From Deltaproteobacteria bacterium (GTDB lineage: Bacteria > Myxococcota > XYA12-FULL-58-9): a stretch of 64,000 nucleotides of DNA. Both the position numbers and the translations under genes were made by a program. The notes below the pieces were generated by a model that saw nothing but the letters and a program-made list of their open reading frames with translations, had not been told where the DNA came from and made no database searches. Location of the stretch: positions 1 through 64,000 of the forward strand of contig JACRCV010000101.1 in assembly GCA_016218825.1 (NCBI GenBank), read 5' to 3'. Below, in pieces: positions 34,661 through 61,384 of this stretch. Numbering within the stretch: the stretch's first letter is position 1; each line of letters opens with the position of its first letter.

Positions 34661-35119
34661 ATGACGGGAGGAAACTACCCGTACACCTCGCCCACGGCGA
34701 CCGTGCTCTCGCGGCCGTTCCCGTGGACGCCCCACGTGCACCCTCAGACGGGCATGGTGTGCATGGGAGAGGCATGGCGCCTGAGCGTCGGCCGCATGCT
34801 GTTCCCGCAGCTCATCGTGCACGTGATGCACTGCCTGAACTTCGACGAGCCGGACCGCGGCCCCAAGTACGTGGGCTGGAACGCCGAGGCGATCAACTAC
34901 TGGCGCCAGAAGCTGCACACGCAGCCGCTGCACCCCGATCTGCTGTACCCCGTGCTTCCCCTCGAACTCACGCACGGAATCCCGGCAGCAGGGAGCGGGA
35001 TGCGCATCCTCGGAGCCGCGACCCCCGAGGACGAGGGGGGCGGCTTCAGGTTCGTGCGGGCCGAGCCTAGCGAAGATGCGAGCGGCTTCCGGCTGCTCTC
35101 GCCGGAGGCGGCCCGATGA
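34661..35119 (+). CDS. E2/UBC-like ubiquitin-conjugating protein, N-terminally short
   Basis: 152 residues from the ATG; a GTG at 34634 would add nine residues that are the antisense of the CHAT frame. The sequence follows the E2 fold: NYPYTSPTATV matches the YP...P strand, HVHPQTGMVCMGEAWRLS the HPN...G.iC active-site segment with a Cys in the catalytic position, and WNAEAINYWRQKL the C-terminal helices. The N-terminal helix and first two strands of an E2 (~50 residues) are missing, because a stop lies at 34610. It overlaps the JAMM gene by 4 bases (ATGA). E2s carry a ubiquitin-like protein as a thioester; no Ubl or E1 gene is adjacent. The loss of the N-terminus makes activity uncertain. 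Confidence 0.75.
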   Translation: MTGGNYPYTSPTATVLSRPFPWTPHVHPQTGMVCMGEAWRLSVGRMLFPQLIVHVMHCLNFDEPDRGPKYVGWNAEAINYWRQKLHTQPLHPDLLYPVLPLELTHGIPAAGSGMRILGAATPEDEGGGFRFVRAEPSEDASGFRLLSPEAAR

Positions 35120-36093
35120 CCCCCTCGCAGGAGCGCGCGGAGACCTCCGCAGGCTTCCTGGTCGTCGCGCGCCACGACGAGCCCGTCACGCGGCGTGACC
35201 GCTCGCGAGCCCGCGCGGGCTGGCGGATCTTCCGCGGCGGCGACGGCTTCGAGGCCGCCATCGCGGAGGACGTCGCCGAGCGGCTCCTCGCGCTCTCCCG
35301 CGCGGCCGAGCCCAACGAGTGGTACGGCCTCCTCGTCGGACGCGTGCACGACGACGCGGAGGGGCGACACGTCGTGGTCGTCGGGGTCCTGATCGACGCC
35401 GACGCGCGGACGAGTCCCGGGGCGGCGGCGACGACCCCCGAGTCGGAGCTCGCGACGCGACAGCTCGCGGCGCGGCTCTTCCCCGACGCGGTCATCGTCG
35501 GGTGGACGCACGGGCACGTGCGTTGCGGCGCGCGGTACTCCCCGGTCGACCTCCAGAACCAGCGGACGTGGCGGCAGCCCCACGCGCTCGGGATCGTGTG
35601 CGACCCCTGGGACACGGTCGAGGGTCCCTTCGGCGTGTACCGCGGCCCGCAGTCCGAACGGCTCACGCCGGTCGGGTCGGGCGCGGCGGACGACGCGAGG
35701 CTCGTGATCGTCGGGCCCGCCGCGCCCACGGCGGCCCCGAGCGGCCCGACGCCGAAGCCTCCGCGGCGCGGGCGGCGGATTCGCATCCTGCCCGTCCTTC
35801 TCGTGATCGCGGCGACGCTCGGCACTTGGGCGACGCTCGCGACGCGCAGGCGCGTGGCGGGCCTCGCCGCCCGCGTCGACGCGCTCGAGAGACGCGCGCT
35901 CCAGGGCGCGACCCACGGCGTCGCCGCGCCCGCGCGCTCCCCCTCGTTTCGCACGGCGACGGCCCGCGCTCACCGGACGCACGAGCCGGACCGGCCTGCG
36001 CCCGTGCCGTCCGCGGAGGCCCCGAGGGCGCCGAACGATGGCCACGGTCTCGATGGCGGAGCGATGATCGATGCCAAGGGAGGGCCGTCGTGA
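35116..36093 (+). CDS. JAB/MPN+ metalloprotease (JAMM) with C-terminal membrane segment
   Basis: 325 residues. The JAMM zinc motif is complete: Glu in PNEWYGLLVG (~67), then WTHGHVRCGARYSPVDLQNQ with the His-x-His pair, seven residues, Ser-x-x-Asp (~132-145). Enzymes with this motif remove or process ubiquitin-like proteins. After the ~200-residue catalytic domain comes a Pro-rich linker, a transmembrane helix (ILPVLLVIAATLGTWATLA, ~235-253) and a short coiled-coil-like tail, which is unusual for a deubiquitinase and would tether it to the membrane. It is encoded between an E2-like gene and a small membrane protein with 4- and 1-base overlaps, so one operon is very likely. Confidence 0.88.
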   Translation: MTPSQERAETSAGFLVVARHDEPVTRRDRSRARAGWRIFRGGDGFEAAIAEDVAERLLALSRAAEPNEWYGLLVGRVHDDAEGRHVVVVGVLIDADARTSPGAAATTPESELATRQLAARLFPDAVIVGWTHGHVRCGARYSPVDLQNQRTWRQPHALGIVCDPWDTVEGPFGVYRGPQSERLTPVGSGAADDARLVIVGPAAPTAAPSGPTPKPPRRGRRIRILPVLLVIAATLGTWATLATRRRVAGLAARVDALERRALQGATHGVAAPARSPSFRTATARAHRTHEPDRPAPVPSAEAPRAPNDGHGLDGGAMIDAKGGPS

Positions 36094-38829: not shown

Positions 38830-39156
38830 ATGAAGGGCTTCTCCACCCCCACGCCAGCGCGCATCGTCGTCGCTGTTCTGCTCCTGCCCGTCTTCGCGCT
38901 CTACGGCCTCTACGTCGCCCTGGTCGAGGCCGCCGCGCTCGTCGCGGGCCTCGGTCGATCGCGCGCCGCGCACGCCGACACGCTCCACTGCCCGCACGGC
39001 CACCCCAACGCCACCGTCGGGCGGTTCGCCTGCGCGAGCTGCCACGCCACCTACCTCGGCTGGGTCGGGCGCTGCGCGATCTGCGGCGCAGGCGCGGGGT
39101 GGGTGCCGTGCGAGGTCTGCGACGTGAGCATCCCGCTGCCCTGGGAGCGGCCGTGA
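38830..39156 (+). CDS. Membrane protein with zinc-ribbon domain
   Basis: 108 residues. One transmembrane helix (IVVAVLLLPVFALYGLYVAL, ~12-31) is followed by two zinc-ribbon-like units: CPHGHPN...FACASCHATY and CAICGAG...CEVCDVSI. The ATG at 38830 follows a CGAGGTCACCC sequence with a weak ribosome site. It overlaps the replication-relaxation gene by 4 bases (GTGA), so the two form an operon. A membrane-anchored zinc-binding adaptor is the simplest reading; I know no family name. Confidence 0.7.
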   Translation: MKGFSTPTPARIVVAVLLLPVFALYGLYVALVEAAALVAGLGRSRAAHADTLHCPHGHPNATVGRFACASCHATYLGWVGRCAICGAGAGWVPCEVCDVSIPLPWERP

Positions 39157-39989
39157 CGGCGGCACGGGTGAAGCGCGGGCTCCCTCGGGCCGCGCCGCGG
39201 TCGATTCTCAATGAGCGCCACTACGACGCGCTCGAGAGGATCCAGTGGGCGCGCTTCCTCTCGACCGGGCAGGTGAGGCGCAGCGCACCCTACCCCTCGG
39301 ACCGGACGGCGCAGAGGGGTCTGCGCGGACTGCTCGACCACCGACTCGTGAGCGCGCACCTCCAGGGCGAGGCGCTCCAGCGGGAAACCGTGTTCACGGT
39401 CACGGCGCGGGGACTCGAGGCGCTAGCCGCGGCGGTCCGGCTCGAAGGCCCGCTTCCCCCGCCGACGCGCATCCCGCGACCCCAGAAGCTCCGACACGCG
39501 CTCGCCATCCGCGACGTCTTCTGCGCGTACCTCGTCGCCGAGCGCGAGGGCCACCTCGACCTCGTGGACTTCCACTTCGACAGCGACCTCGCGGGCGACG
39601 CGCGCTTCCAGGCCGCGGGCCTCGTCCCCGACGCCGTCGTCGTGACCGAGCGCGGCGGCGGGCGGACGACGGCCGGGATCGAGGTGGACCTCGGCACCGA
39701 GCCCACACGCGTGCTGCGCGACAAGTTCGACCGCTGGCGCCAGATTCTGTCGGCGGCCACCGTCGCGGCGGCGGCCGCCCCGACGACGCTTATCGTGACC
39801 GCGGCGCGCCCGACGCGACGGGCCACGATCCAGCGCCTCGTCGAGGACGCGGGCGTGGGGGCCGTGACGAAGGTCGTGCTCGCAACCGAGCTGCCCGGTC
39901 TGCTCCGGGCGGACGTTGCGGATGCGCCGACGCCGCCCGAGGCGCGAGCCGCGCCCGAGGATGCTCCCGTGCGCTTCCGCGTGCTGTAG
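39153..39989 (+). CDS. Replication-relaxation family protein (copy 1)
   Basis: 278 residues from a GTG overlapping the previous stop. The N-terminus is a winged-helix domain (LERIQWARFLSTGQVRRSA, AQRGLRGLLDHRLVSAHL, FTVTARGLEALAAA). The second half has the nuclease-like core of the family: LRHALAIRDVFCAYL, GLVPDAVVVTERG, TAGIEVDLGTEPT and RDKFDRWRQIL. Such proteins are found on plasmids and integrative elements, often next to TraG/HerA-like ATPases, as here. They are thought to assist replication or mobilisation; direct evidence of enzymatic activity is lacking. A second copy is at 54137-54976. Confidence 0.75.
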   Translation: MTAARVKRGLPRAAPRSILNERHYDALERIQWARFLSTGQVRRSAPYPSDRTAQRGLRGLLDHRLVSAHLQGEALQRETVFTVTARGLEALAAAVRLEGPLPPPTRIPRPQKLRHALAIRDVFCAYLVAEREGHLDLVDFHFDSDLAGDARFQAAGLVPDAVVVTERGGGRTTAGIEVDLGTEPTRVLRDKFDRWRQILSAATVAAAAAPTTLIVTAARPTRRATIQRLVEDAGVGAVTKVVLATELPGLLRADVADAPTPPEARAAPEDAPVRFRVL

Positions 39990-41513: not shown

Positions 41514-42248
41514 CTACGGCTCGGGCGAGCGGAGCGAGTCGCCCGCGATGCGGATCGTGGTGCAGCGGTGGCGCAGGCGGTCGAGCAACGCGCCGACCAT
41601 CTCCTTGCGGCCGAGGAAGTCGTACCAGGCGTCGTACTCGAGGTTCGTGGTGATGACCGTCGAGTGACGGTTGTAGCGCTCCTCCATCAGCTTGAAGAAG
41701 AGGTTGGTCTGCTCGGGGCGCAGGTTCAAGTAGCCCATTTCATCGATCAGCAAGACGTCGAGTCGCGCGAGGTGATCGAGGAGCTTGCGCGACGAGCGGT
41801 CGGCCATCGAGGTGTACAGCTCGTCGAAGAGGTCCTGCGCCTTGACGAAGAGGCAGCGGTAGCCGTTCTCCAAGGCCTTCAGCAGAATCGAGGAGGCGAT
41901 CCCGGTCTTGCCCGTGCCCGTGGGGCCGATGAGCACGACGTTGCGGTGCTGGGCGATGAAGTCCAGCTCCGCGAGCTGCTTGACCGAGTCGGCGGGCACC
42001 CCCAGCTGCCGCTCGAAGGGGAAGGTCTCCAGCGTCCAGCGCTCGGGGATCTTCGCACGGCGGATGCGCGCGACGACCCGCTGCTCGCGCTGCGCATCGA
42101 CCTCCTCGCGCAGCAGCCCCACGAGGAAATCGCGGTAGCTCGCGTGGGTCTTCTCGGCGCGCGCGAGGTCGCGCTCCAGGATGGAGGCGACGCGCCGGAG
42201 CCGGAGCGTCGCGAGCAGTTGATCGAGTTCGTCATCCGAGCGTTTCAT
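41514..42248 (-). CDS. istB: IstB-like ATP-binding protein
   Basis: 244 residues. IstB is the AAA+ partner that loads the IS21 transposase onto target DNA. Signatures: Walker A VLIGPTGTGKTGIA, Walker B LDVLLIDEMGYLNL, then VITTNLEYDAWYDFLG and GALLDRLRHRCTTIRI. The N-terminal helical region (LLATLRLRRVASILERDLAR) is also typical. The ATG at 42248 has a strong ribosome site (GGGGAGGTGACG). The frame is open further upstream and runs without a stop into the ParB-like domain, so a fused 402-residue product is possible. Elsewhere it pairs with istA, which is missing here. Confidence 0.88.
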   Translation of the reverse strand: MKRSDDELDQLLATLRLRRVASILERDLARAEKTHASYRDFLVGLLREEVDAQREQRVVARIRRAKIPERWTLETFPFERQLGVPADSVKQLAELDFIAQHRNVVLIGPTGTGKTGIASSILLKALENGYRCLFVKAQDLFDELYTSMADRSSRKLLDHLARLDVLLIDEMGYLNLRPEQTNLFFKLMEERYNRHSTVITTNLEYDAWYDFLGRKEMVGALLDRLRHRCTTIRIAGDSLRSPEP

Positions 42249-42722
42249 CGTCACCTCCCCGGTCGGGGTCGTCGGGTGCGAGGCGGAAGTACGTCGCCCC
42301 GAGCGTTCGCAAGGCCATGGTCGGGCCAGGCGCCGACAGACCCAACTCGCCGTGCGGCCCATGCGCCGACCGAGCTCGCGCTGCCCCAGCCCGTGCGGGC
42401 CGAGGAGCTCGCGCACCAGCCAGGCCTCCTCGAGAGCCTCGAGGCGGCGCCCGCCCGCGAGCCGCCACGCGCGCATCATCGCCTCGACCTCGTCGCACCC
42501 GAGGTCCATCGCCGCGACGGCGTCGCGCCCGAGCGAGCGAAGTGCCCGCACGCGGCGGTAGCCGTCCACCAGCACGAAGCCCGTGGCGGAGTCGGCGAAG
42601 ACCAGCACGGGGTGCCGCTGCCCCTCCGCGAGCAGCGATGCGGTGAGCCGCGCCTCGCGCGCCGGATCGCGGAGGCGAAGTGCCTCGTAGCGCAGCTCGA
42701 TCTGGTGGTGCTCCAACTCCAT
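42249..42722 (-). CDS. ParB-like nuclease domain, N-terminal part, in frame with IstB
   Basis: About 158 codons from an ATG at 42722 (MELEHHQIELRYEALRLRDP). RLTASLLAEGQRHPVLVFAD, VLVDGYRRVRALRSLG and the HTH-like QRELGRRMGRTASWVCRRLA are the ParB N-terminal fold followed by the start of the KorB-type HTH domain. The rest of a ParB protein is missing. After RRLA the sequence loses ParB character and runs in frame into IstB. A neighbouring frame ends in a stop right at the IstB start, so a frameshift or deletion may have fused two formerly overlapping genes. The role in transposition is unknown; ParB proteins bind and slide on specific DNA. Confidence 0.7.
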
Positions 42723-42738
42723 GGAAACGCCGAGAACG

Positions 42739-43230
42739 CTACGGATCTCGTCTCGCCGAGGCGATCGTGTCTCGCGGGGGGTGCGGGGGAAGTCCCGCCG
42801 ATTCCCGTGTGCTCTCCACGGGTTGAGAAGGCATCTCGTCTCGTCGGGAGTCGGGGCGGACTTCCGCCGATTGCCGCGTGGTATCAACGAGTTGAGCGAG
42901 GATCTCGTCTCGCAGGCCCTGGGCGATCCGTCGCAGGCACTGGCGAAGCACGCGCGCCGCGAGCACGCCGAGCAGCGCATCGACGGCGCCCCACTGGATG
43001 CAGGCGGTCGGGTCTCTCGAGGCGGGCGCGGGCGTCGCGGGGGTCGCGATGCGCGAGGCCACGCGGTCGTCGCGAAGAGAGCCGTCGTTACGGCGGTGCC
43101 AGTCCTTGCAAGAGCGCCGGTGCCGCTCGCGCTGACAGGCGACGCTCCCGCAGCAACGCTGACGCGCGCCGACGCGGGGGTGGGGCTGGAACCAGCGACG
43201 ACAGATCGGGCAGGGGCGACGAGGGGTCAC
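42739..43230 (-). CDS. Zinc-ribbon protein of the IS, with 23-residue repeats
   Basis: 163 residues. The Cys/His cluster CPICRRWFQPHPRVGARQRC, then CGSVACQRERHRRSCKDWHR, is shared with the remnant element's protein at 32665-33297. This is a conserved small zinc-binding module, likely DNA-binding. The C-terminal third consists of 23-residue repeats starting RDE/RDT (copies at about 42763, 42832 and 42901 in DNA). It is the first gene after the right IS end and precedes the ParB-like gene by 17 bases. I know no named family; its conservation between two elements argues for a function in transposition or its control. Confidence 0.7.
   Translation of the reverse strand: MTPRRPCPICRRWFQPHPRVGARQRCCGSVACQRERHRRSCKDWHRRNDGSLRDDRVASRIATPATPAPASRDPTACIQWGAVDALLGVLAARVLRQCLRRIAQGLRDEILAQLVDTTRQSAEVRPDSRRDEMPSQPVESTRESAGLPPHPPRDTIASARRDP
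42744..42969. repeat. 69-base tandem repeats inside the IS zinc-ribbon gene
   Basis: Copies of GATCTCGTCTCG or variants start near 42763, 42832 and 42901, 69 bases apart, with an extra copy of the motif at 42744. The inner parts (CCGATT.CCG and GTTGAG) are less conserved than in the remnant's repeats. They encode 23-residue units. Same period and lead motif as at 32749-33024. Confidence 0.65.
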
Positions 43231-43362: not shown

Positions 43363-43677
43363 CGCCTGTGCCTCAGGCTTCCGAACGGCTGGTGACCGGA
43401 TGTCCTGCCGAGCCTGATGGCCATCATTTTGACGTGTGTGGCCAACGTCGGCGGCTCCCACCGCACCCGACCGCGCTGTCCCGGCCACCGCCAGCGAGGG
43501 GGCCGCACGGGCGGTGCGGCGCCACCGGAACGACGGCCGCGGCGAGATCTGGTGCCCCTCCGGTGTCGGTGGAGCACCCCAGAGCTACGTCGGCGTCGCG
43601 ACGTAGAGGCCGTCCGAAGATAGCGAGCCTCTGCCGAAATTTTGGTGAACATACGCACAGGAGCATGCTCGGGAGAT
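43363..43677. promoter_or_regulatory. Upstream region of the wHTH gene, with an operator-like inverted repeat
   Basis: After the target duplication and the native end of the interrupted gene (stop near 43391) there is no gene. At 43584-43605 an inverted repeat CTACGTCG...CGACGTAG stands some 70-90 bases before the start of the large wHTH protein gene, which is a likely place for an operator. An AT-rich stretch (GAAATTTTGG) lies at 43636-43645. GGGAG at 43671-43675 is a good ribosome site for the ATG at 43678. Confidence 0.45.
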
Positions 43678-45873
43678 ATGTCGTCCTCTCGATCCTCTCG
43701 CGCCTCGTCGCCTCGTCTCGTCCGCACGGAGCCGGTGCCCGGCGGCGATGAGCCCCCGTCGCTGCCCCTCCCGCAGGAGTTCCTCGACGAGGCGCCTCTT
43801 CGGGAGATCTCTGTAGAGCGCTGGCGCTCGGTCTTCGCGCGCGGAGGCGTGCCGAGCGGTGCCATGCTCGACGCGCTGACTGAGGATGGCGTCGTCGCCG
43901 CCTTCGCCGCGCCGGACCTTCCGCGCCTTTATCTGGACCTCCTCCAGGTCCTGCATGACCTCGGGACGCCGCTTGGCGCCGACGCGCTGCACGACGCCGC
44001 GGCCGAGTGCGGCGTGGACCGTTCGGACTGGCCGATCGAGGTGCGAGAGCTCGCCGCGGAGCTCTGGGCGCGATCGATCCGCAGACGCGAGTACGCGCGG
44101 CTGCTCGTGCTCGCCATGATCACCTCCCACGAGCGCGCCGCCGCCGGGGCGCGGCGCGAGTACGCGAGCCGGACGCCGCGCGCCTGTGAGAGCCCCCACC
44201 AGCGGGTGCGGGCCCTGGAGGACGCGCTGCGCCCGTGGTTCGTCGAGGAGCAGCTCGGGGACTACGTCGAGGTGAAGCTGCGTCCGGAGGAGGGGGGTTT
44301 CGGCCTCTGCATCCTCCACGGCGGCCGACCGATCGCGCGGCGCGCCGTCCGCAACGGCACGCGCGAGACGATCCGCTACCAGCCCGCGCAGTGCGACACG
44401 GCCCGCTACGACGCCCTGTCGGGGCGGCTGCGGGTCACCTCGCGCTCTGAGCGCGTCGCCAGCGAGTACTGCACCCGCATCGGCGAGGTGCTGTTCGGGG
44501 ACCCCGCCTTCTTCTCGACGAAGCGCGTCTGCACCCTCGACCCCTTGCGCCGCGCGATCGACGCCGGCCAGCTGCCGACGCCGCACCCGCGCCTCGGCAT
44601 CCTCGCGGTGCGTTTGGTCGACTGCCTCTGGGGCCAGGACGACGGCTTCCGCGTGCGGCTCCACGGGTCGCGTACGCGCGACTGCATCGACCGCATCCGC
44701 CAGCTCCAGTTCCACCTCGACGAGGGGCGGTTCGAGGACGCGCGGCTGGAGTTCGTGTTCCGGGGGGCGCGCGGCTTCGACGTCGTCCGGGTCGTCATCA
44801 AGGCGCCGAACCTCATCGACCCGAAGGGCCAGCTCCACCGCGAGGAGATCGACGAGTACCTCACCGAGATCGGCGTCCGGCTCGCGCCCGAGGAGGCGGC
44901 CCCCGCCGAGCCCGACGATCTGTGGGCGCTCGGCGCGGGCGGACACCTCCTGTCGCGCTGGCGCCGTCTCTGCGGGGACGACACGCGGGCCGCGTTGCAG
45001 AGCCGGGTGCTGTATCAGTCGCTCCTCGACGCCATCGAGTCCGACGGCGAGCGACGGCTGGTCGACGCCGTCGAGGACGCAACCGGCGAGGTACTGGTGG
45101 CGGTGCCCGCGGAGCCCGGAGACGGGCTCCGGCTCGCCGTCGCGCCTGGTGACCTGGCGGGCTACGCCCTCGACGGGCGACGCCTCGCCGAGCAGGTCGC
45201 GGACGCTCTCGGATGCCGCCCGTCGGTCGCGACGACCGTGATCGACGGCTGCTACGACCTCAACACCCTGTCGATCGGGGCCGTGGGCGTGCGTCCTTTC
45301 CTCGTGACGCGGCAGCCCCAGGTCCCGCCCGGCACGCTCGCCGCTACCCTCGCGCGGGCCGCCAGACCCGACCACGCCGTCGCCATCGTCCCCGAGGGAC
45401 GCGCAGTCGACCCGAGCCTGCCCGCGGTCGCGATGCGCCGCATCGTGCCGCCGTTCGACGGGCTCATCCCGGAGATCGTGCGCGCGCTCGGCATCGAGGA
45501 ACGTGTTCCCCTCCTCGATCGCGTGCCTCTGGGCACGCGGCTCGTCGTGCACGTGGCAGGTAACCGGGTGTGGCTCGACAGGATCGAGCTCACCGCCCTC
45601 TCACCGCAGGCCCGCGCGCTCCTCGTGAGCCTCGCGCGCGACCAGTGCGCGGGCACCTCGACGAAGACCGACGACCTGATGCGGCGGCTCCCAGGGTGGG
45701 CGGACGGGACCCCGTCGAACCGCGCCAAGGACGCGCGCAAGTACGCGCTCGACTGCATCCACAAGTCCTTCGTCGCACAGGGGGCCTCACCGCCCGCAGA
45801 CCTGAAGTCCGTCATCCGAGCGGTGGGCGGGGTGTACCGGCTCGGCGACGGCATCCGAGCCTACGTGGAGTAG
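43678..45873 (+). CDS. Large protein with C-terminal winged-helix domain, upstream of the Ubl operon
   Basis: 731 residues from the ATG at 43678, chosen for its ribosome site (GGGAG, two bases upstream of ATATG). Most of the protein has no recognised family. It is soluble and contains Cys/His-poor alpha/beta text such as LRPEEGGFGLCILHGGRPIA, FDVVRVVIKAPNLIDPKGQL and TLSIGAVGVRPFLVTRQPQ. The last ~100 residues (VWLDRIELTALSPQARALL, DLMRRLPGWADGTPS, KSVIRAVGGVYRLGDGIRA) resemble an OmpR/SARP-like winged helix with its final GYRL-type strand. It may be a sensor-regulator of the ubiquitin-like operon 184 bases downstream on the same strand, but a different role is possible. Confidence 0.65.
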   Translation: MSSSRSSRASSPRLVRTEPVPGGDEPPSLPLPQEFLDEAPLREISVERWRSVFARGGVPSGAMLDALTEDGVVAAFAAPDLPRLYLDLLQVLHDLGTPLGADALHDAAAECGVDRSDWPIEVRELAAELWARSIRRREYARLLVLAMITSHERAAAGARREYASRTPRACESPHQRVRALEDALRPWFVEEQLGDYVEVKLRPEEGGFGLCILHGGRPIARRAVRNGTRETIRYQPAQCDTARYDALSGRLRVTSRSERVASEYCTRIGEVLFGDPAFFSTKRVCTLDPLRRAIDAGQLPTPHPRLGILAVRLVDCLWGQDDGFRVRLHGSRTRDCIDRIRQLQFHLDEGRFEDARLEFVFRGARGFDVVRVVIKAPNLIDPKGQLHREEIDEYLTEIGVRLAPEEAAPAEPDDLWALGAGGHLLSRWRRLCGDDTRAALQSRVLYQSLLDAIESDGERRLVDAVEDATGEVLVAVPAEPGDGLRLAVAPGDLAGYALDGRRLAEQVADALGCRPSVATTVIDGCYDLNTLSIGAVGVRPFLVTRQPQVPPGTLAATLARAARPDHAVAIVPEGRAVDPSLPAVAMRRIVPPFDGLIPEIVRALGIEERVPLLDRVPLGTRLVVHVAGNRVWLDRIELTALSPQARALLVSLARDQCAGTSTKTDDLMRRLPGWADGTPSNRAKDARKYALDCIHKSFVAQGASPPADLKSVIRAVGGVYRLGDGIRAYVE

Positions 45874-46056: not shown

Positions 46057-46380
46057 ATGAGCAACGACGAGAACAAGCAGCCCGAGATCACCCACGACGA
46101 GGTCGATATCGAGGAGTACGCGAAGCGCGGCGAGGCGCCGCCGAACGCCCGGCGGTACCGCATCCGCGTCGACCGGGAGAAGCACACGGTCACGGTGCCG
46201 AAGATGTCGGGGCGCGACCTCCTCAAGCTCGCGGGCAAGGTGCCGCCCGAGCGCTTCTCGCTCACGCAGAAGTTCCGCGGCGGCGCGGTGAAGCCCGTGG
46301 GCCTCGACGACACGGTGGTCTTCACGACGCCGGGCGTCGAGTGCTTCATGACCCTCCCGCTCGACCAGACGGAGGGCTGA
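46057..46380 (+). CDS. Ubiquitin-like protein (multiubiquitin-domain family)
   Basis: 107 residues. After a ~25-residue acidic N-terminus comes one beta-grasp domain of the multiubiquitin family: ARRYRIRVDREKHTVTVPKM, SGRDLLKLAGKVPPERFSLT, LDDTVVFTTPGVECFMTLPL. GRxLLxLAG and PGVExF are the hallmark phrases. Relatives carry several tandem copies; this one has a single copy. The C-terminus is DQTEG, with one terminal Gly rather than Gly-Gly. The protein is likely adenylated by the E1 encoded two genes downstream and attached to a target. It heads an operon with E2, JAB-E1 and DUF6527 genes separated by 1 base or by 4-base overlaps. An upstream in-frame extension was rejected. Confidence 0.88.
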   Translation: MSNDENKQPEITHDEVDIEEYAKRGEAPPNARRYRIRVDREKHTVTVPKMSGRDLLKLAGKVPPERFSLTQKFRGGAVKPVGLDDTVVFTTPGVECFMTLPLDQTEG

Positions 46381-46381
46381 C

Positions 46382-46789
46382 ATGCGCCGCCAGTTCCGCC
46401 TCCCGCCCGACGACGAGACCCACCTCGACTCCCTGGGCCTGCCCTGGGAGACCGTGGTCGACGCCAACGTGCGCTGGCTGATCGTGCACGACCGGCCGGT
46501 GCCCGCCGGCTACACGGCGGAGCGCGTCCGCGTCGCGCTCCAGATCCCCGCGGGGTACCCCGACGTGCAGCTCGACATGGTCTACTTCGAGCCCGCGCTC
46601 GCGCGGCGCGACGGCGGCGCGATCGGCGCGCTCGCCGCGCAGACGATCGAGGGGCGCCCCTGGCAGCGGTGGTCGCGCCACCGCACGCCCCAGAACCCGT
46701 GGCGCCCCGGCATCGACGACGTGGCGGCGCACCTCCTGCTCGTCGACCACTGGCTCCGTCGCGAGCTCGGCGCGTGGGTGTCGCCGTGA
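46382..46789 (+). CDS. E2/UBC-like protein, prokaryotic family E, without cysteine
   Basis: 135 residues. FRLPPDDETHLDSLGLPWE, VRVALQIPAGYPDVQLDMVY and RPWQRWSRHRTPQNPWRPG, followed by DDVAAHLLLVDHWL, match the E2 family E layout (a YP...DM strand and a WxRW-His segment). There is not a single Cys in the protein, so it cannot form a thioester. Either this family transfers the Ubl otherwise (a conserved His is present in SRHRTP and AAHLLL) or it is a non-catalytic E2 variant. It starts one base after the Ubl stop and overlaps the JAB-E1 gene by 4 bases, which fixes it in the operon. Confidence 0.85.
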   Translation: MRRQFRLPPDDETHLDSLGLPWETVVDANVRWLIVHDRPVPAGYTAERVRVALQIPAGYPDVQLDMVYFEPALARRDGGAIGALAAQTIEGRPWQRWSRHRTPQNPWRPGIDDVAAHLLLVDHWLRRELGAWVSP

Positions 46790-48186
46790 GGCGCCGCCTG
46801 CGCATGACGGCCGACCAGCACGCACGCCTCGCAGCGCACGTGCTCGCACCCGACGGGTGTGAGGCCGCGGCCGTCCTGATCTGCGGGCGCGGCCGCGGCG
46901 ACGACGCCGAGGTCCTCACCGTCCGCGAGGTCCACCCGGTGCCGTACGAGGCGTGCCCGGTGCGGGAGCCCGACCGCCTCACCTGGCGGACCGAGACGAT
47001 CGCGCCCCTCGTCGCGCGTGCGGCGAAGGAGGGCCTCGCGGTCGTGAAGGCGCACGGCCACCCGGGCGGGCGGCGTGCCTTCTCCCCGACCGACGACGCG
47101 GCGGACCGCGAGCTCTTCCGGTCGGTGCACGGCTGGACCGACGACGGCCGCCCCCACGGCAGCCTCGTGGTCGTGCCCGGCGGCGAGTGCATCGCGCGCT
47201 TCGTCGACGAGGCGGGGGCGTTCGCGCCGGTCGACCTCGTCACGGTCGTGGGCGACGACCTCCGCCTCTTCTGGCGCGACGCCGTCGCGACGGGGCCGCC
47301 CGGGTTCGCGCGGCGCCACGCCCAGGCCTTCGGCGAGGGCACGGCCGACGCGCTGCGACGCCTCTCCGTCGCCGTGGTCGGCGTGTCGGGCACCGGCGGC
47401 CCGGTGGTCGAGCAGCTCCAGCGCCTCGGCGTCGGGCGGCTCGTGCTCGTCGACCCCGACCGCGTCGAGGAGCTCAACCTCAACCGCATCCCCCACGCGA
47501 CCCGCGACGACGCGCTCCGCAAGCGCCCGAAGGTCGATGTCGCGGCGGAGGCCGTGCGGCGCACGGGGCTCGGCACCGAGGTCGTGACCTACGCGCGCAA
47601 CCTCAAGGACCCCGAGGTCGTGCGCGCAATCGCGACCTGCGACCTCGTGTTCGGGTGCATGGACGGCGCGGAAGGAAGGCACCTCCTGAACCGCCTCGCG
47701 ACGTTCTACGTGCTCCCGTACATCGACGTGGGCGTGCGCCTCGACGCCGACGGCCGGGGCGGCGTGAGCCAGATCTGCGGCAGCATCCACTGGCTCACGC
47801 CCGGCGGGTCGAGCCTCCTCTCGCGCGGGGTGATCTCGCTCGACGAGGTGGCCGCCGAGGGGCTGCGTCGGCAGTCGCCTGCGGAGTACCGGCGCCGGCG
47901 CGAGGAGAAGTACATCAAGGGCATCCGCGAGGACCGCCCCGCGGTCGTGTCGGTGAACACGACCTTCGCGGGCCTCGCGGTGACCGAGCTCCTCGCGCGG
48001 CTGCACCCCTTCCGCGACGACGGCAACGCGCCCTGCGCGCGCCTCACCTGCACCCTGTCGCAGGTCCGCTTCGAGTGCGCCGAGGACGGCCCCCCGTGCC
48101 CCGTGCTCGCCCGGCACGTCGGCCGGGGCGACGTGGTCCCGCTCCTCCTCGACCCCGAGCTCTCGGAGACGGAGCGGGCCGCGTGA
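46786..48186 (+). CDS. JAB deubiquitinase-E1 (ThiF) fusion
   Basis: 466 residues from a GTG overlapping the E2 stop (GTGA); an ATG at 46804 is possible. The N-terminal ~150 residues are a JAMM domain with a complete motif: KAHGHPGGRRAFSPTDD gives His-x-His and Ser-x-x-Asp (~90-104). The rest is an E1/ThiF-like adenylating enzyme: VVGVSGTGGPVVEQLQRLG is the Gly-rich ATP loop (~195), VLVDPDRVEELNLNRI the Asp-containing motif, and LVFGCMDGAEGRHLLN follows. The Cys in SQICGSIHW may be the thioester residue. One protein would both activate and remove the Ubl. Such fusions are known from bacterial Ubl operons. Confidence 0.9.
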   Translation: MRRRLRMTADQHARLAAHVLAPDGCEAAAVLICGRGRGDDAEVLTVREVHPVPYEACPVREPDRLTWRTETIAPLVARAAKEGLAVVKAHGHPGGRRAFSPTDDAADRELFRSVHGWTDDGRPHGSLVVVPGGECIARFVDEAGAFAPVDLVTVVGDDLRLFWRDAVATGPPGFARRHAQAFGEGTADALRRLSVAVVGVSGTGGPVVEQLQRLGVGRLVLVDPDRVEELNLNRIPHATRDDALRKRPKVDVAAEAVRRTGLGTEVVTYARNLKDPEVVRAIATCDLVFGCMDGAEGRHLLNRLATFYVLPYIDVGVRLDADGRGGVSQICGSIHWLTPGGSSLLSRGVISLDEVAAEGLRRQSPAEYRRRREEKYIKGIREDRPAVVSVNTTFAGLAVTELLARLHPFRDDGNAPCARLTCTLSQVRFECAEDGPPCPVLARHVGRGDVVPLLLDPELSETERAA

Positions 48187-48833: not shown

Positions 48834-49343
48834 ATGGACTCGACGGACACCATGTCACTCGCGCAGGCGCTGCGGCGCGGACTCAGGGGACCTCGGCGCA
48901 GGGCCGATCGGGTCGCGGCCCTCGAACGGGACGCCGCGGATCTAGCGAAACGCTTCCACGCGCGCTTCGGCGCCGTCGAGCCGGAGCTGGCTCCCCTGCC
49001 CGCCAGCGCCCTGGGGTTGAAGAGGAAGCTGCCCTGCATCCGCGCGGGCGACGACACCTACCTCCTCTGCGTCGAGACGTCGCTCGACGAGCGCGTGCTG
49101 GCGGACGCGCACCTCGGTGGCCCCGACGGTCGCACGGCGACCATCTCGATCAGCGGCACCTACCGCGGCCTGCCGCGCCGGCGCAAGGCCCGGCGGGAGC
49201 ACCTCCTGCTCGCAATCCTCGAGGCCATCGCCCGGCACGAGCTCGGCAACGCAGACGCAGTGAAGATCGTCCGGCGCCGCACCGAGCTCTGGTGCGAGCT
49301 CCACGGCCGCGAGGCCGGGCAGCGCGCGCGGTCGGCCAACTGA
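48834..49343 (+). CDS. Hypothetical protein
   Basis: 169 residues from the ATG with AAGGAG eight bases upstream; an in-frame extension upstream is Arg/Ser-rich and was rejected. It has a basic helical start (ALRRGLRGPRRRADRVAALE). The central part is beta-rich (GDDTYLLCVETSLDERVLAD, ATISISGTYRGLPRRRK), then a helix (LLLAILEAIARHELGNADAV). No family is recognised. It is the first of three small plus-strand genes after the Ubl operon. Confidence 0.6.
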   Translation: MDSTDTMSLAQALRRGLRGPRRRADRVAALERDAADLAKRFHARFGAVEPELAPLPASALGLKRKLPCIRAGDDTYLLCVETSLDERVLADAHLGGPDGRTATISISGTYRGLPRRRKARREHLLLAILEAIARHELGNADAVKIVRRRTELWCELHGREAGQRARSAN

Positions 49344-51445: not shown

Positions 51446-52618
51446 TCAGCCGGGCACGAGGCCTGCCCGACGGATGCGGGTGCGCAGGGTCGAGCGGGCG
51501 ATGCCCAGGCGCTTCGCGGCCTGCGAGAGGTTCCAGTGCTCGGCCGCGAGGACGTGCGCGATCGTGGCCGTGGTCGCACCGTCGCGTACCTCGTGCTGCG
51601 CGCCCGGCTCGCTCGCGAGGGCCGCGCGCACGTGGACACGGCTGATGAGCTCGGCTTCGGTCTCGATCACCACGCGGCGGAGCACGTTCTTGAGCTGCCG
51701 CACGTTGCCGGGCCAGCCGTACTCCTGGAGGGCGCAGAGCGCGTCGGGGTCAAGTCGGCGCGCCCCGTGGTCGGGGGCGAGGTCGTCGAGGACGCGGCGG
51801 GCGAGGAGGGGCATTTCCTCGGCGCGATATCGCAGGGGCGGGAGGTGCAGGAGGAGCCCCGTGAGGCGGTAGTAGAGGTCCTCGCGGAAGAGCCCACGGC
51901 GGACCATCTCGGCGAGGTCGCGGTGAGTCGCAACCACGAGCCGCACATCCACCGTGCGCACTCGTTCGGCGCCGAGGGGCCGCACCTCCCGGGTCTCGAG
52001 GACCCGCAGAAGCGCAGCCTGGGCGTCGGGCATGAGCTCCCCGATCTCGTCGAGGAAGAGCGTACCCTTGTCCGCCTGCTCGAAGAACCCGCGCCGCCTC
52101 GCGATGGCGCCGGTGAAGGCGCCGCGCTCGTGCCCGAAGAGTTCAGAGAGGAGCAGGCTCTCCGGGAACGCCGCGATGTTGACCGCGACGAGGGGCTGCT
52201 TCGCGCGCGGTGAGAGCTGGTGGACTGCACGCGCGACGAGCTCCTTGCCGGTGCCCGTCTCGCCGTGAACGACGACAATTGCGGTAGTCTTCGCGAAGCG
52301 AACGAGCTGTTCCTTGAGGAGCCGCATGGCGGGGGTGCGCCCCAGGATGCCGGTCACCTTCTCGAGCTCCCGGGCGTCGGAGGCAGGCGTCGGGGTGTCG
52401 GGCGCAGCGGGTTCGTAGGTGATCGAGGCGGCGTCGGCGACGCCTCTGCGCGTGTCCATCAGGATGTCCTCCGTGAGGATGACCGCGTGCAGCGCATGGG
52501 CGGCGGCATCGTGCGGTCGGGTGATCGGAACGAACGCGAGAGGCGTCCACTCGTAGCGTACGCGAGGGCCCGCTACGCACACCAGCCGCGGCACGGCGTG
52601 GGATATCCACACCCTCAC
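51446..52618 (-). CDS. Sigma-54-dependent Fis-family transcriptional activator
   Basis: 390 residues. The AAA+ core has Walker A GETGTGKELVARAVH, the sigma-54 loop ELFGHERGAFTGA, Walker B TLFLDEIGEL, the Arg-containing sensor region (FREDLYYRL) and GWPGNVRQLKN. The end is a Fis-type HTH (LSQAAKRLGIARSTLRTRIR). So it hydrolyses ATP to open sigma-54 promoters. The N-terminus (~80 residues) shows no clear sensor domain (only a poor FHA-like stretch), so the input is unknown. Its GTG start overlaps the HerA-like ATPase gene stop by 4 bases. The target genes are not evident, but location suggests control of island transfer functions. Confidence 0.9.
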   Translation of the reverse strand: MRVWISHAVPRLVCVAGPRVRYEWTPLAFVPITRPHDAAAHALHAVILTEDILMDTRRGVADAASITYEPAAPDTPTPASDARELEKVTGILGRTPAMRLLKEQLVRFAKTTAIVVVHGETGTGKELVARAVHQLSPRAKQPLVAVNIAAFPESLLLSELFGHERGAFTGAIARRRGFFEQADKGTLFLDEIGELMPDAQAALLRVLETREVRPLGAERVRTVDVRLVVATHRDLAEMVRRGLFREDLYYRLTGLLLHLPPLRYRAEEMPLLARRVLDDLAPDHGARRLDPDALCALQEYGWPGNVRQLKNVLRRVVIETEAELISRVHVRAALASEPGAQHEVRDGATTATIAHVLAAEHWNLSQAAKRLGIARSTLRTRIRRAGLVPG

Positions 52619-53952
52619 TCGAAGTGGAGGCGGAGGTTCTCGCCCGCGCGCGGCCGCCGCGGCGCGGTCGGCGGCAGCCCCAGATCTTCGACGACCTCCG
52701 CGTCCACGCGCGCACGATCGCGGCCGTACCTCTCGCGACTCAGGCGGCGCAGAAGTTCGGCGCGACCATGCACCTCTCCCACGGGTGGCAACGTCGTCGC
52801 GGTGAAGGGCCGCGTGGTCAACCCATCGACGGCGAGACGCAGCGCGATTTGGTAGCGGTCGAGGCGCACGAGGTCTTCAGCATCGAGTTCGGGCGAGAAC
52901 TCGCGGGCGAGCAGACCCGCGTCCTCGGCGCCGACACGAAAGGTGACGAGCGTCCCGCAGTTTCCCAGGAGCGCGCTTGTGAGGCCCTCGTCGAGCTGTG
53001 CGAGGTGCTGGTGCGCGAGCACGAGCCCGAGCCCGTACTTTCTGGCCTCCGCTAGAAGCTCAGCGAAGCTCTTCGTCACGAAACTTTGAAATTCATCGGC
53101 GACGAGGAGGAAGGGGTGGCGTTCGGCAGGCGCGACGCGAGCGCGCTCAAACGCCGCGAGCTGGAAGGAAGTCGTGAGGACGGCGCCGAGCATCGCGCTC
53201 GCCTGCTCTCCAACAACACCCTTCGCGACGTTGGCGATGAAGACGCGGCGCTTGCGCAGGATCTCCCCGGCCGTGGTTGTGCTCCGATGCTGCCCAAGGA
53301 TCGCGCGTAGATGCGTCGAGGTCAGCGCCGCCGCGAGCTTGTTCTGCACGGGCGCGATGACCCCGGCGAGGAAGGTCCGTGGGTACTGCGCGAACTCCCT
53401 CGTCCAGAAGAACTTCACGAGCGGGTCTTCCACGCGCGCGATGACGCGGGTGCGGAAGGCATCGTCGACGAGCATGCGCAGCGCGCTCAGAAGCGTTGCG
53501 TCCGGCACTTCGAGGAGCGCGAGCAGGGTGTTCCGCAGCACGTGTTCGAGTCGCGGGCCCCACGACTCGAAGAACACCTTCTTGAAAATCCCGACGACGC
53601 CGCTTACGACACGCGCTCGATCACGCGCGGCGACGTGTTCGAGCAAGTTCCAGCCGAGGGGGCGCAGCTCTTCGCCGGCGTCGAGCACGACGACATCGTT
53701 CGTACGCGACGTGGGCACCTGATCGAGCACGCGCTCGGCGAGATCGCCGTGGGGGTCGATGAGGGCGAGGCCCATCCCCCGCTCGATGGCGCCCATCGCG
53801 AGACGTTCGAGGAGCGCGGACTTCCCGACGCCCGTGCGCCCGAGGACATGCACGTGCCGGAGAAGATCTGCCTCGCGAATGCCGAAGACGCGCCCGCGCT
53901 GGAGGCGGGCGTCGATGGCCCCGAGAGGCAGAAGGTCATCGTGGTGGTTCAT
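52615..53952 (-). CDS. HerA/TraG-like ATPase (copy 2)
   Basis: 445 residues. HVHVLGRTGVGKSALLERLA (~33-52) is Walker A with the usual N-terminal HerA/VirD4 context, followed by LALIDPHGDLAERVLDQVP, a DPHGD motif of the type IV coupling/DUF87 group. Walker B is FLLVADEFQSF (~265), then KYGLGLVLAHQHLAQLDEGL and GNCGTLVTFRVGAEDA, typical of coupling proteins. No transmembrane helices are seen, so it may need a membrane partner. It is unlike copy 1 (36429-38075) in sequence detail but has the same motif order. The replication-relaxation gene lies upstream on the same strand. Confidence 0.88.
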   Translation of the reverse strand: MNHHDDLLPLGAIDARLQRGRVFGIREADLLRHVHVLGRTGVGKSALLERLAMGAIERGMGLALIDPHGDLAERVLDQVPTSRTNDVVVLDAGEELRPLGWNLLEHVAARDRARVVSGVVGIFKKVFFESWGPRLEHVLRNTLLALLEVPDATLLSALRMLVDDAFRTRVIARVEDPLVKFFWTREFAQYPRTFLAGVIAPVQNKLAAALTSTHLRAILGQHRSTTTAGEILRKRRVFIANVAKGVVGEQASAMLGAVLTTSFQLAAFERARVAPAERHPFLLVADEFQSFVTKSFAELLAEARKYGLGLVLAHQHLAQLDEGLTSALLGNCGTLVTFRVGAEDAGLLAREFSPELDAEDLVRLDRYQIALRLAVDGLTTRPFTATTLPPVGEVHGRAELLRRLSRERYGRDRARVDAEVVEDLGLPPTAPRRPRAGENLRLHFE

Positions 53953-53958
53953 GGAAAC

Positions 53959-53988
53959 GAGCGCTCGCTCCCCTTCGTGAGGGAGCGA
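53959..53988. repeat. Perfect hairpin between ATPase and replication-relaxation genes
   Basis: CGCTCGCTCCC (53959-53969) pairs with GGGAGCGAGCG (53978-53988), loop CTTCGTGA. It lies just upstream of the HerA-like gene start (7-36 bases). It could be an operator, an attenuator or an element for mobilisation. No T-tract follows, so a simple terminator is less likely. Confidence 0.5.
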
Positions 53989-54136
53989 GCGATGGAGCTG
54001 TCTTCGTGTGCCCTCCTGCGCCGCGGCTCTCGCGGGGCGCTGTCCCCGTGAGGCGAGACCGTCGCGTCGAAGTCAGCGCATCGCGACGACGGACCCGCCC
54101 GTGTGGTGGCGGCAGATCCGGCAGGAGGGCGAGATG

Positions 54137-54976
54137 TCAGGGGCGAAAGAGCGCCCGAGGGTGATCCTCCCCGGCCTTGGCGACGAAGGCCGTCGCATCG
54201 AGGAGGCGCTCGGGCGCGGCCACATCGACGGCGTCGTGCGGGAGGAACCAGAGGAGCCCCGAGCCGCGCTTGTCCACGGCACCGATGGCGAGGTCACGCA
54301 GGCGCATGAGGCGCTGCGGTCGGGGTGCGACCGTGATGACGCGCGTCGCGGCGAGGCCGAATCGTCGGACGGGTCCGCCGTCGGCCCACCAGGCGTGGTA
54401 CCCGGCGTACTTGAGGCGCATGGTCTTCGTCGAGACCGTGCCCATGTCGGTCTCGAGGAGGAGCCCCATGCGCCTGCCGTGGTGCTCGACGATGGCGAGG
54501 GCATCCGCGACGAGTGGCACGCGCACGGCGTGGCCCTTCTCCGCGAGATGGACCACGTCGCCGATCTTCTCGCGCGCGGTCTGCCACGAGAGGAGGCGGA
54601 GATCACCGCGGGCATCGAGCGCTTCGAGTGCGAGACCGAACTCGTTCACGAGGAGCTCGTGTGCGAGAGAGAAGGCGCTACGGAGCGTGCGTGTGGTCCG
54701 CGGACGCAGGCGTTCTCGATCGACATCGACGAGGGCGAGGCCCGCGGGCGTGAGCGCGTATGCGGGAGCATGGTCTCGCACCGCGAACGTGCTGGGCCGA
54801 AGCTCGCGCAGAGCGCCGTCGCCGACGAGCATCGCGAAGGTGGCTTCGAGCTCCGTCGCCTCCTTTCCGAGCCGCGCCGCGAGCTGACGCACCGACGCGA
54901 AGCGATGGCGCGCAAGCAGCCGCAGCGCGTCAGGAAGCCATGCCGGGCGCGGAGCGAGGAGAGAATCTTGGAGCAT
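54137..54976 (-). CDS. Replication-relaxation family protein (copy 2)
   Basis: 279 residues. A winged-helix N-terminus (ALRLLARHRFASVRQLAARL, FAMLVGDGALRELRPSTF, YALTPAGLALVDVD) is followed by the family core: LLETDMGTVSTKTMRLKYAG, FGLAATRVITVAPRPQRL and a C-terminal helical part. The start overlaps the next upstream gene by 47 bases. Together with the HerA-like ATPase downstream this repeats the pairing seen at 36.4-40.0 kb. The second half lacks the EVDLGTE spelling of copy 1 but keeps ETDMGT in its place. Confidence 0.75.
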   Translation of the reverse strand: MLQDSLLAPRPAWLPDALRLLARHRFASVRQLAARLGKEATELEATFAMLVGDGALRELRPSTFAVRDHAPAYALTPAGLALVDVDRERLRPRTTRTLRSAFSLAHELLVNEFGLALEALDARGDLRLLSWQTAREKIGDVVHLAEKGHAVRVPLVADALAIVEHHGRRMGLLLETDMGTVSTKTMRLKYAGYHAWWADGGPVRRFGLAATRVITVAPRPQRLMRLRDLAIGAVDKRGSGLLWFLPHDAVDVAAPERLLDATAFVAKAGEDHPRALFRP

Positions 54977-57213: not shown

Positions 57214-57510
57214 ATGCTTCATGAGCAAACCGGGTCCGCGCCTGTCAAGGCGCCGATACAACAGGGTGATCTTTCACAACCTACTATGACTGAAACCGTC
57301 TCGCTCCCCGCGGGAGACACTTCGTTCGTGTCTCCGAGGGAGCTTGCGCATCATCTTCGTGTCACGACCGACTGCATCTACCGACTCGTCGCGAAGCGGG
57401 CGCTTCCCGCGTACCGCGTTCTCCGCAGGATTCTCTTTCGCCGAAGCGATGTCGAGCGTTGGCTCGACGCGCACCGGACGGAGGTCCGCGACAAAGACGT
57501 ATGGCGGTAA
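57214..57510 (+). CDS. Excisionase-type HTH protein
   Basis: 98 residues from the ATG at 57214; an ATG at 57286 (MTETVSLPAG) is an alternative start. The core SPRELAHHLRVTTDCIYRLV, followed by AYRVLRRILFRRSDVERWL, is the excisionase/MerR-like winged helix (DNA-binding domain of the Xis/excisionase family). It overlaps the integrase start by 10 bases. It should direct excision of the element or regulate int. GC content is visibly lower than in the neighbouring operons. Confidence 0.75.
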   Translation: MLHEQTGSAPVKAPIQQGDLSQPTMTETVSLPAGDTSFVSPRELAHHLRVTTDCIYRLVAKRALPAYRVLRRILFRRSDVERWLDAHRTEVRDKDVWR

Positions 57511-58652
57511 GAAAGGTTAAGGGATCTTGGTGGGTGGACTTCATGTACAACGGCGAACGGCTACGAAAACCGAGCCCTGGCAACTCGAAGGCATCCGCCG
57601 AGCAGTTTGAGGCCTTCTTGCGTCAACTGGTCGCACAACATGGGTCCGTACGAGAGGTACTCAAGATTCGCAAACCTACGAAGTCCCAGGCGTGCATTAC
57701 GCTCGCGGAGTTCATGCCACGTTGGTTCGAGGGGTACGTCGCCGTCTACAATCGGCCCAAGGAACAGCATCAAAAGCGCTGCGCGTTTCGTGCGCATCTA
57801 CTACAGAGTTTCGGTACGCTGCGTCTTAATGCGATCACCACTGAGGTGATCGAACGGTACAAGGCGAAGAAGAAACTGTCAGGGCTTACACCGAAAACAA
57901 TCAACAACCATCTCGCCATCCTTCGCAAGTGCCTAGCAACAGCCAGAGATTGGAACTTGCTAACTGAGGTTCCGCATGTGCCGACGCTGAGAACGAGTCG
58001 CCCATCGTTCCGCTATCTCAGCGAATCGGAGGAGAAAGCTCTCCTGGCGGCGACTCCACCCTGCCAACTGCGTTCGATGATCTTGGTGGCGCTTCGTACC
58101 GGGCTACGGTTCTCGGAGTTGACTGCGTTACGCTGGGAAGATATTGACCTCAACCGGGGTCTACTCGCCGTCCATCGCTCGATCGTCGAGGGGCATATTG
58201 GCCCGACCAAGAACCTCCGCAGCCGCCACATTCGGCTGACCCGTGAGGTTCTTGATGTGCTCCAGGCCACGCCGAAGGAGCACCCGCTAGTGTTCCAGCA
58301 CGACGGCGCTCCAGTTCATCAACAGGTGGCGATAAAGCGTCTTCGTCGGCTTTCCAAACGCGCTGGAATTGAACCCGCCACTTGGCATGATCTACGACAT
58401 ACGTTCGCGAGTCGGCTCGTCGCACGCGGTGCTCCGCTTCCAGCGGTGCAACAACTTCTCGGGCACGCGGACATCGCGATGACGATGCGGTACACGCACC
58501 TTGCTCCTGATACTGTAAGCAGTGCGATGGACCTTCTCGAAGAAAGATGGGTGTTCTTGAACAGAGACTCCGAAGGTGAATTGTCATCTAATTGTCACCA
58601 AGCCGTACTTTCACCCACGCAACAGTCAAGCGCGCAGTCCGAAACGCGATGA
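57501..58652 (+). CDS. int: Tyrosine integrase
   Basis: 383 residues, from the ATG at 57501. An arm-binding region (AVRKVKGSWWVDFMYNGERL) and a core-binding SAM-like domain (~70-170) precede the catalytic domain: Arg in LRTGLRFSELTALRW (~200), the beta-hairpin Lys region (GHIGPTKNLRSRHIRLT), HDLRHTFASRL (~296), LLGHADIAMTMRYTHL with the catalytic Tyr (~330). All catalytic residues are present. It lies just left of a tRNA 3' fragment, the classical int-attachment-site layout. GC content is near 55%, far below the surroundings, so it is a recent arrival or comes from a different donor. Confidence 0.92.
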   Translation: MAVRKVKGSWWVDFMYNGERLRKPSPGNSKASAEQFEAFLRQLVAQHGSVREVLKIRKPTKSQACITLAEFMPRWFEGYVAVYNRPKEQHQKRCAFRAHLLQSFGTLRLNAITTEVIERYKAKKKLSGLTPKTINNHLAILRKCLATARDWNLLTEVPHVPTLRTSRPSFRYLSESEEKALLAATPPCQLRSMILVALRTGLRFSELTALRWEDIDLNRGLLAVHRSIVEGHIGPTKNLRSRHIRLTREVLDVLQATPKEHPLVFQHDGAPVHQQVAIKRLRRLSKRAGIEPATWHDLRHTFASRLVARGAPLPAVQQLLGHADIAMTMRYTHLAPDTVSSAMDLLEERWVFLNRDSEGELSSNCHQAVLSPTQQSSAQSETR

Positions 58653-60241: not shown

Positions 60242-61384
60242 TCACCGTAGTGACCTGCACCGGGCGCCGACAGGGACGCAGAGAGCCCCGACGGCGACGC
60301 ATCGCGCACCCAGAGAGGTGCGCGAGGTGAAGGCCGAGTCCGGCCCCACCGGGACCGGCTGTTTGGTGTCGAAAATGTCGCCCATCCCGTGTTGGTCGTC
60401 AAGATCGAACGGCCCAGGAGAAACAGAGGCTTCCCGCGGGTTGGGAAGCGTCGTCAACGTACCCCTCGGCATGTTGGTCGTCGTCGCGGACGGGACCGGC
60501 AGGATCGCGGCGGGGACCGTGCCTTCGAGCCGCCGGACCGCCTCGCGACGGCGGGTGTCCACGAGGTGCAGGTACCGGCGGGTGGTGTTCACGTCGCTGT
60601 GGCGCAGGAGTTCAGCGACCGTCGAGAGGTCGGTGCCGGCCGTGAGGGTGAGGGTCGCCGCCGTGTGCCGCAGGGTGTGCGGGGTGATGTGCTTCGCCGA
60701 GCCCATGCGCCGCCGCAGGCAGGCGAGGAGAGATTCGGCCGCGCGGATGGAGAGCCGTGTGCCCCGCTGCGAGAGGAAGAGGGCCTGCTCGCCATCCCGA
60801 ACGCCCCGCTCGACAATCCAGGCCCCGAGGAGGGCGACGGTGGGGGAGTTCAGCGGGAGGTCGTGGATGGTGCCGCCCTTGCCACGGACGGCGACGAGGG
60901 TCGCGCTCGCGAGGTCAACCTGGTGCACGTCGAGGCCAACGGCCTCGTGGACCCGGAGCCCGGCCTGGGAGAGCACCGCGAGGAGGGCAAGGTTCCGAGC
61001 GCGCTCCCCCGCACGGGAAGTCCTCGCAGCGGTCTCGAAGAGCAGCCCGAGCTCGGCGGACGTGAGGACCGCGGGATCATGCGGGGCTTCACGTACGAAG
61101 GGGATGCCGTCGGTGGGGTTCGTGGTCCAGCCCAGCTCGCCCCGGGCGAAGGCGACGAAGGAGCGCAGGGCCGCGAGCTCCTGGTTCCGGGAGGTCGACG
61201 CACGCTGAGCGCCATCGCGACGGGGCCGGGCGAGGAACTCCTCCACGAGGGCCCGCGTGGGGATGTCGATCGCCGGGTGGAACATGGTGAAGGACGTGAG
61301 GATCGCCCCGTACGTCTTGACCGTGCGAGGCAGGTGTCGGTCCGCAAGCAGGTGGCGGACGAAGGCGGGGAGATGGTCGCGCAT
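60242..61384 (-). CDS. XerC/D-like tyrosine recombinase
   Basis: 380 residues from the ATG at 61384. The N-terminal SAM-like domain (VRHLLADRHLPRTVKTYGAI) and catalytic domain are Xer-like: Arg in SQAGLRVHEAVGL (~141), Lys in VRGKGGTIHDLPL, HTLRHTAATL (~238), LLRHSDVNTTRRYLHL with the Tyr (~271; LGH is changed to LRH). An additional ~85 residues after the catalytic Tyr are Pro/Thr-rich and look disordered, which is unusual. No xis-like partner is adjacent. It could be an integron-like or phage-type integrase for a second element next to the tRNA fragment. Confidence 0.85.
   Translation of the reverse strand: MRDHLPAFVRHLLADRHLPRTVKTYGAILTSFTMFHPAIDIPTRALVEEFLARPRRDGAQRASTSRNQELAALRSFVAFARGELGWTTNPTDGIPFVREAPHDPAVLTSAELGLLFETAARTSRAGERARNLALLAVLSQAGLRVHEAVGLDVHQVDLASATLVAVRGKGGTIHDLPLNSPTVALLGAWIVERGVRDGEQALFLSQRGTRLSIRAAESLLACLRRRMGSAKHITPHTLRHTAATLTLTAGTDLSTVAELLRHSDVNTTRRYLHLVDTRRREAVRRLEGTVPAAILPVPSATTTNMPRGTLTTLPNPREASVSPGPFDLDDQHGMGDIFDTKQPVPVGPDSAFTSRTSLGARCVAVGALCVPVGARCRSLR

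Follow-up and report, generated by a model that had tools for sequence, protein, structure and literature searches.

The small gene at positions 46382-46789 of the window (the whole stretch of 64,000 nucleotides analysed here) encodes BubB, the E2-like subunit of a Bub-type Ubl conjugation operon, and its product might act without any thioester, by means of an oxyester on Ser98 that is formed with the aid of His100. We give this reading of the mechanism a probability of about 0.5. Bub stands for bacterial ubiquitination-like, and 544 such operons are on record (PMC13373217). The operon in the window is an ordinary member of this known system, and the lack of Cys in its E2 is a published trait of the family (PMC1779556) rather than something special to this one genome. 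What the present analysis adds are bacterial and archaeal relatives of the Cys type. Worth keeping are the exchange of Ser and Cys at one and the same site within PF14462 and the mutational test that this exchange allows. The relevant features of the window are:

43642-45873, forward strand: open reading frame of 743 codons, of no known family, just 5' of the Ubl gene
46057-46380, forward strand: Ubl (BubA-like, Multi_ubiq) with one beta-grasp domain, PF14452, 43.5 bits
46382-46789, forward strand: E2/UBC-fold protein without Cys (BubB-like, Prok-E2_E), PF14462, 134.7 bits
46670-46681, forward strand: codons W97-S98-R99-H100, proposed active-site motif (S98 at 46673-46675, H100 at 46679-46681)
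46786-48186, forward strand: JAB-E1 fusion (BubCD-like), PF14464 and PF00899
48183-48569, forward strand: DUF6527, cysteine-rich putative metal-binding protein, PF20137, 71.7 bits

As in a Bub operon, the genes for Ubl, E2 and JAB-E1 are adjacent and co-oriented (46057-48186) and touch or overlap each other; the stop codon of the E2 gene overlaps the GTG start of the JAB-E1 gene at 46786. The Ubl ends exactly in Gly (DQTEG), and among the relatives, most Ubl domains likewise have a Gly at their end or close to it. The DUF6527 gene occupies the same position in many related operons, and the order Ubl, E2, JAB-E1, DUF6527 recurs on plasmid pSYSX of Synechocystis 6803, as it does in the majority of the plasmid loci compared. 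PADLOC returned only generic E1-E2 matches, all of which fall on the E1 domain, while the E2 of the window was not matched.

The E2 gene starts with ATG and codes for 135 amino acids followed by a stop codon. It is intact, since the Prok-E2_E match in Pfam covers profile positions 1-122 of 123, its score lies far above the curated cut-off of 25 bits, and its GC3 is 0.985. There are no Cys residues in the translation of this intact gene, and the observation in the earlier note of an E2-fold protein without any Cys is thereby borne out. However, six other genes of the window contain only 16 Cys in 2440 residues, and at this local rate a protein of 135 residues would be free of Cys with a probability of about 0.41. 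The absence of Cys is therefore weak evidence when taken alone, and only a position-by-position comparison with relatives is informative.

For this comparison, E2 relatives were collected from whole genomes and genome contigs as well as from plasmids and viral contigs, which yielded alignments of 34, 64 and 67 rows, the last being the 64-row alignment extended by one rhizobial and two haloarchaeal relatives. Two relatives were found in the viral contigs, and none matched in the phage records. None of the three alignments contains a column of conserved Cys, and the closest relatives of the window E2 (L001 and L004, 60% identity) likewise have no Cys at all. An error at a conserved Cys is excluded by these two observations, and the chance that faulty sequencing or assembly caused the missing Cys is practically nil. 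The alignment proposed in the earlier note thus turned up no conserved Cys in close relatives, which, together with a sequencing error, would have spoken against its claim; instead, its view that a Cys thioester on this E2 is impossible can be extended to the whole family. As alternatives, the note named a different route of Ubl transfer or a role of the E2 as structural partner.

The position that does stand out is site 98. In the 34-row alignment, P71, S98, H100 and W107 are invariant, Ser98 and His100 being part of the family motif QRWSRH...W. Site 98 is occupied by Ser in 61 and by Cys in three (L067, L069 and L072) of the 64 sequences, and by Ser in 62, Cys in four and Ala in one of the 67. 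Ser or Cys is hence present in 66 of 67 E2 proteins, and this is the sole near-invariant column of Ser, Thr or Cys in the family. Together with Ser98, the most conserved residues are His100 (61/67) and Trp107, the conserved Trp that follows site 98 (66/67); Asp112 is, like His100, strongly conserved. The three bacterial Cys-type proteins lack His100. The histidines in SRHRTP and DDVAAHLLL had been regarded as the only obvious conserved-looking polar candidates. This holds for His100 of SRHRTP but fails for His117 of DDVAAHLLL, which is His in just 26 of 64 sequences and is rejected as a conserved catalytic residue; moreover, the near-invariant Ser98 within the very same SRHRTP had been overlooked.

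The four relatives with Cys exactly at site 98 comprise three bacterial proteins and one haloarchaeal protein. Two haloarchaeal plasmids, from Natrinema (L083, 4001-4354) and Salinigranum (L084, 4001-4288), carry an E2-like gene with a C-x-H motif and an adjoining JAB-E1 gene. In the Salinigranum protein the motif YCIHHVRW aligns with WSRHRTPQNPW of the window such that its Cys falls on site 98 and its His on site 100, which amounts to a Cys/Ser exchange within one x-x-H...W motif. The Natrinema protein supplies the single Ala at site 98, its own C-x-H...W motif (HCIHELHDW) being aligned a few columns off. Both are borderline by Pfam PF14462 (25.2 bits for Salinigranum and 24.0 bits for Natrinema, at a cut-off of 25) but clear with the profile built in this analysis (E = 6e-13 and 1.5e-13, respectively). 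In both loci the JAB-E1 gene follows the E2-like gene, and a small gene in front of the latter may code for a Ubl; these loci appear to be archaeal relatives of the Bub operon whose E2 contains a Cys. In the E1 tree, the few Cys-type rows are separated from the others by one branch, whose support is modest (92/67); since this tree has no outside root, it does not settle whether Ser or Cys was the ancestral state. In another relative, a rhizobial Bub-like operon (L085, 4381-7716), a phosphotransferase gene is inserted between the genes for E1 and DUF6527.

The structural comparison is in line with a UBC/UEV-like fold of the window E2, as predicted from an AlphaFold2 model that was computed with nine sequences as input and reached a pLDDT of 93. 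With VIA-align, this model matches BubB (9eae_C) at Z 21.1 and, below it, UBC E2 enzymes and the UEV domains of TSG101 and Vps23 at Z 7.3-8.8. Foldseek alone gave, beyond BubB, only weak UBC matches and did not clearly show the E2 fold. The catalytic Cys found at the active site of a canonical E2 is absent from the protein and is not conserved anywhere in the family. Judged by the approximate end points of the structural alignments, Ser98-His100 would lie near the catalytic Cys of E2 enzymes, and an alignment of the family profile to one well-known canonical E2 sequence was not significant. The equivalence of site 98 to the canonical Cys is accordingly to be taken as approximate.

The E1 was likewise examined for a possible thioester Cys. 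Among 61 JAB-E1 sequences, the JAB residues E26, H90, H92, S100 and D103 are invariant (61/61) and the adenylation residues G199, G204, N231, R234, K249 and D293 nearly so, while no Cys is conserved past residue 300. The commonest Cys in this late part (343, 346 and 438) occur in 34-38 of the 61 sequences, look like CxxC zinc ligands and are replaced by Ser at 343 and 346 in the window. The region around residues 385-392, where E1s of the ThiF or UBA5 type hold their catalytic Cys, reads PAVVSVN in the window. Site 389 within it is T, S, A, P, Y or H across the family, which makes Ser389 an unlikely nucleophile. Cys291 was considered as thioester Cys and rejected, because it belongs to the adenylation-domain motif FGCxD, which resembles the C-T-D-N motif of ThiF/MoeB, and because some members have Ala, Gly or Thr in its place. 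In neither the E2 nor the E1 of the operon is there a conserved Cys on which a thioester could form.

These observations can be arranged into a possible sequence of events. The E1 half of JAB-E1 would adenylate the terminal Gly of the Ubl, and no thioester would arise on the E1, which lacks a conserved Cys beyond its adenylation domain. In the next step an oxyester would form between the Ubl and Ser98 of the E2, His100 serving as general base or oxyanion helper, and the E2 would hand the Ubl over to a nucleophile of the target; adenylation, the oxyester, the order of the steps and the target are all inferred. The JAB half might remove the Ubl again and might also set it free in those relatives where Ubl and E2 are fused. 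A site of the nucleophile should show just such an exchange of Ser and Cys as is seen at site 98; the conservation of Ser98 can, however, also be structural. The missing His100 in the three bacterial Cys-type proteins and the published judgement that the domain is inactive (PMC1779556) likewise speak against the proposal. Somewhat short of an even chance is what we grant to the more general form of this proposal, namely a pathway wholly without thioesters, in which the Ubl passes from the E1 adenylate directly to the serine of the E2 and Cys (in haloarchaeal and some bacterial relatives) and Ser (in Bub) have replaced one another as nucleophile of the E2.

The main rival is a direct aminolysis of Ubl-AMP with a non-covalent E2, in which the E2 never carries the Ubl but binds to the E1 and, through His100 and Asp112, positions or activates the target for an attack on the Ubl-adenylate. 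The lack of a conserved Cys in either protein, the strong conservation of His100 and Asp112, and the fact that BubB was solved in complex with BubCD (according to the title of entry 9eae) all agree with it. However, Ser or Cys at site 98 in 66 of 67 proteins would be left unexplained, and we consider such a presenter rather unlikely. Next in rank, and clearly improbable in our view, is a UEV- or RWD-like adaptor that merely binds the Ubl or the target, any transfer being left to an unknown E3 or to the E1 on its own. This corresponds to the published view (Iyer et al. 2006, PMC1779556) and fits the Z-scores of the TSG101 and Vps23 UEV domains (8.0-8.3), which are among the best structural matches. 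Yet UEV-type domains do not need an invariant Ser-x-His in the region of the active site, whereas here no residues are better conserved than Ser98, His100 and Trp107.

Should the reading of Ser98 be true, protein tagging by a Ubl can use oxyester instead of thioester chemistry. Since both versions would occur naturally on one scaffold, the need for the E2 cysteine would become directly testable, and the sister proteins of the Cys and Ser types would permit a direct study of the Ser-for-Cys exchange in an E2. Part of this may already be contained in the work of Ye et al. from 2026, which is said to report a non-canonical, possibly oxyester, mechanism.

Many Bub operons have a DNA-damage-responsive regulator upstream (CapW, CapH with CapP, or CapK with CapS), and such regulators are present in some of the related operons compared here but are not universal. 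Upstream of the operon in the window lies the 743-codon open reading frame, which has no match in Pfam, PADLOC or the PDB and whose structure prediction (pLDDT 36) is unusable. Genome G184 has two Bub operons (L037 and L038), each with a relative of this open reading frame (27-30% identity) immediately upstream, and it may represent a new Bub-associated gene. Just upstream of it lies an IstB-type ATPase gene (PF01695) of an IS21-like element (41514-42980, reverse strand), and a second JAB-domain protein is encoded farther upstream, at a distance of about 11 kb from the operon (35116-36093, forward strand, PF14464, 27.1 bits). Downstream of DUF6527, an open reading frame of 169 codons (48834-49343, forward strand) matches nothing in Pfam, NCBIfam or PADLOC and has no homologue in the loci compared. 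The operon is flanked by genes for two Replic_Relax proteins, a coupling ATPase of the TraG/TrwB type and two tyrosine integrases (39099-39989, 52615-54976, 57459-58652 and 60242-61681), which suggests an integrative mobile element.

Among the known systems, the UEV domains of TSG101 and Vps23 share with the window E2 an E2 fold without catalytic Cys, whereas the latter retains a near-invariant Ser and His at the site. To our knowledge, UEVs are adaptors and are not encoded alongside an E1 and a Ubl of their own. The E2 domains of the Bil and CBASS Cap2 systems use a Cys, in contrast to the E2 of the window. In other respects, Bil (Type II BilABCD) and CBASS Cap2 are similar to the operon described here in being bacterial systems for the conjugation of a Ubl or Ubl-like protein with E1, E2 and JAB (PMC13373217, PMC12687455).

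Much closer is the Bub system of Citrobacter (PDB entries 9ea4, 9ea5, 9eae and 9eav). Its BubB (9eae, 9eav) is the nearest solved relative of the window E2 (E = 5e-29), and its BubCD (9ea4) matches the JAB-E1 of the window at E = 7e-78. Ubl, E2 and JAB-E1 are homologous and identical in order, and Citrobacter BubB also possesses the WSRH motif with Ser at site 98 and is devoid of Cys; in the E1 tree, the window and a Citrobacter-type locus (L009) fall into one clade of 26 rows with a support of 100/100. On the other hand, the two E2 proteins are only about 45% identical, the Citrobacter-type locus has three Ubl domains fused to the E2 where the window has a single one encoded by its own gene, and the gene upstream of the operon is not that of the window. 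The Bub literature cited in PMC13373217 includes Gong et al. 2025 (doi 10.1016/j.str.2025.03.011) and Ye et al. 2026 (doi 10.1038/s41594-025-01696-1); PMC13373217 itself states that no protection from phages has been demonstrated for Bub operons.

The operon corresponds to type 6e in the classification of Iyer et al. 2006. This type consists of a polyUbl, an 'inactive E2-/RWD like UBC fold domain', a JAB-E1 fusion and a metal-binding protein, and its E2-like domain is without the conserved cysteine according to the text (PMC1779556). The window has the corresponding parts, from the Ubl and the E2-like protein without Cys to the JAB-E1 fusion and the putative metal-binding protein. The E2 of type 6e was predicted to be inactive and to bind the Ubl (PMC1779556). 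In contrast, the exchange of Ser and Cys at one single site, as seen in the aligned sequences, argues for a catalytic role of this E2.
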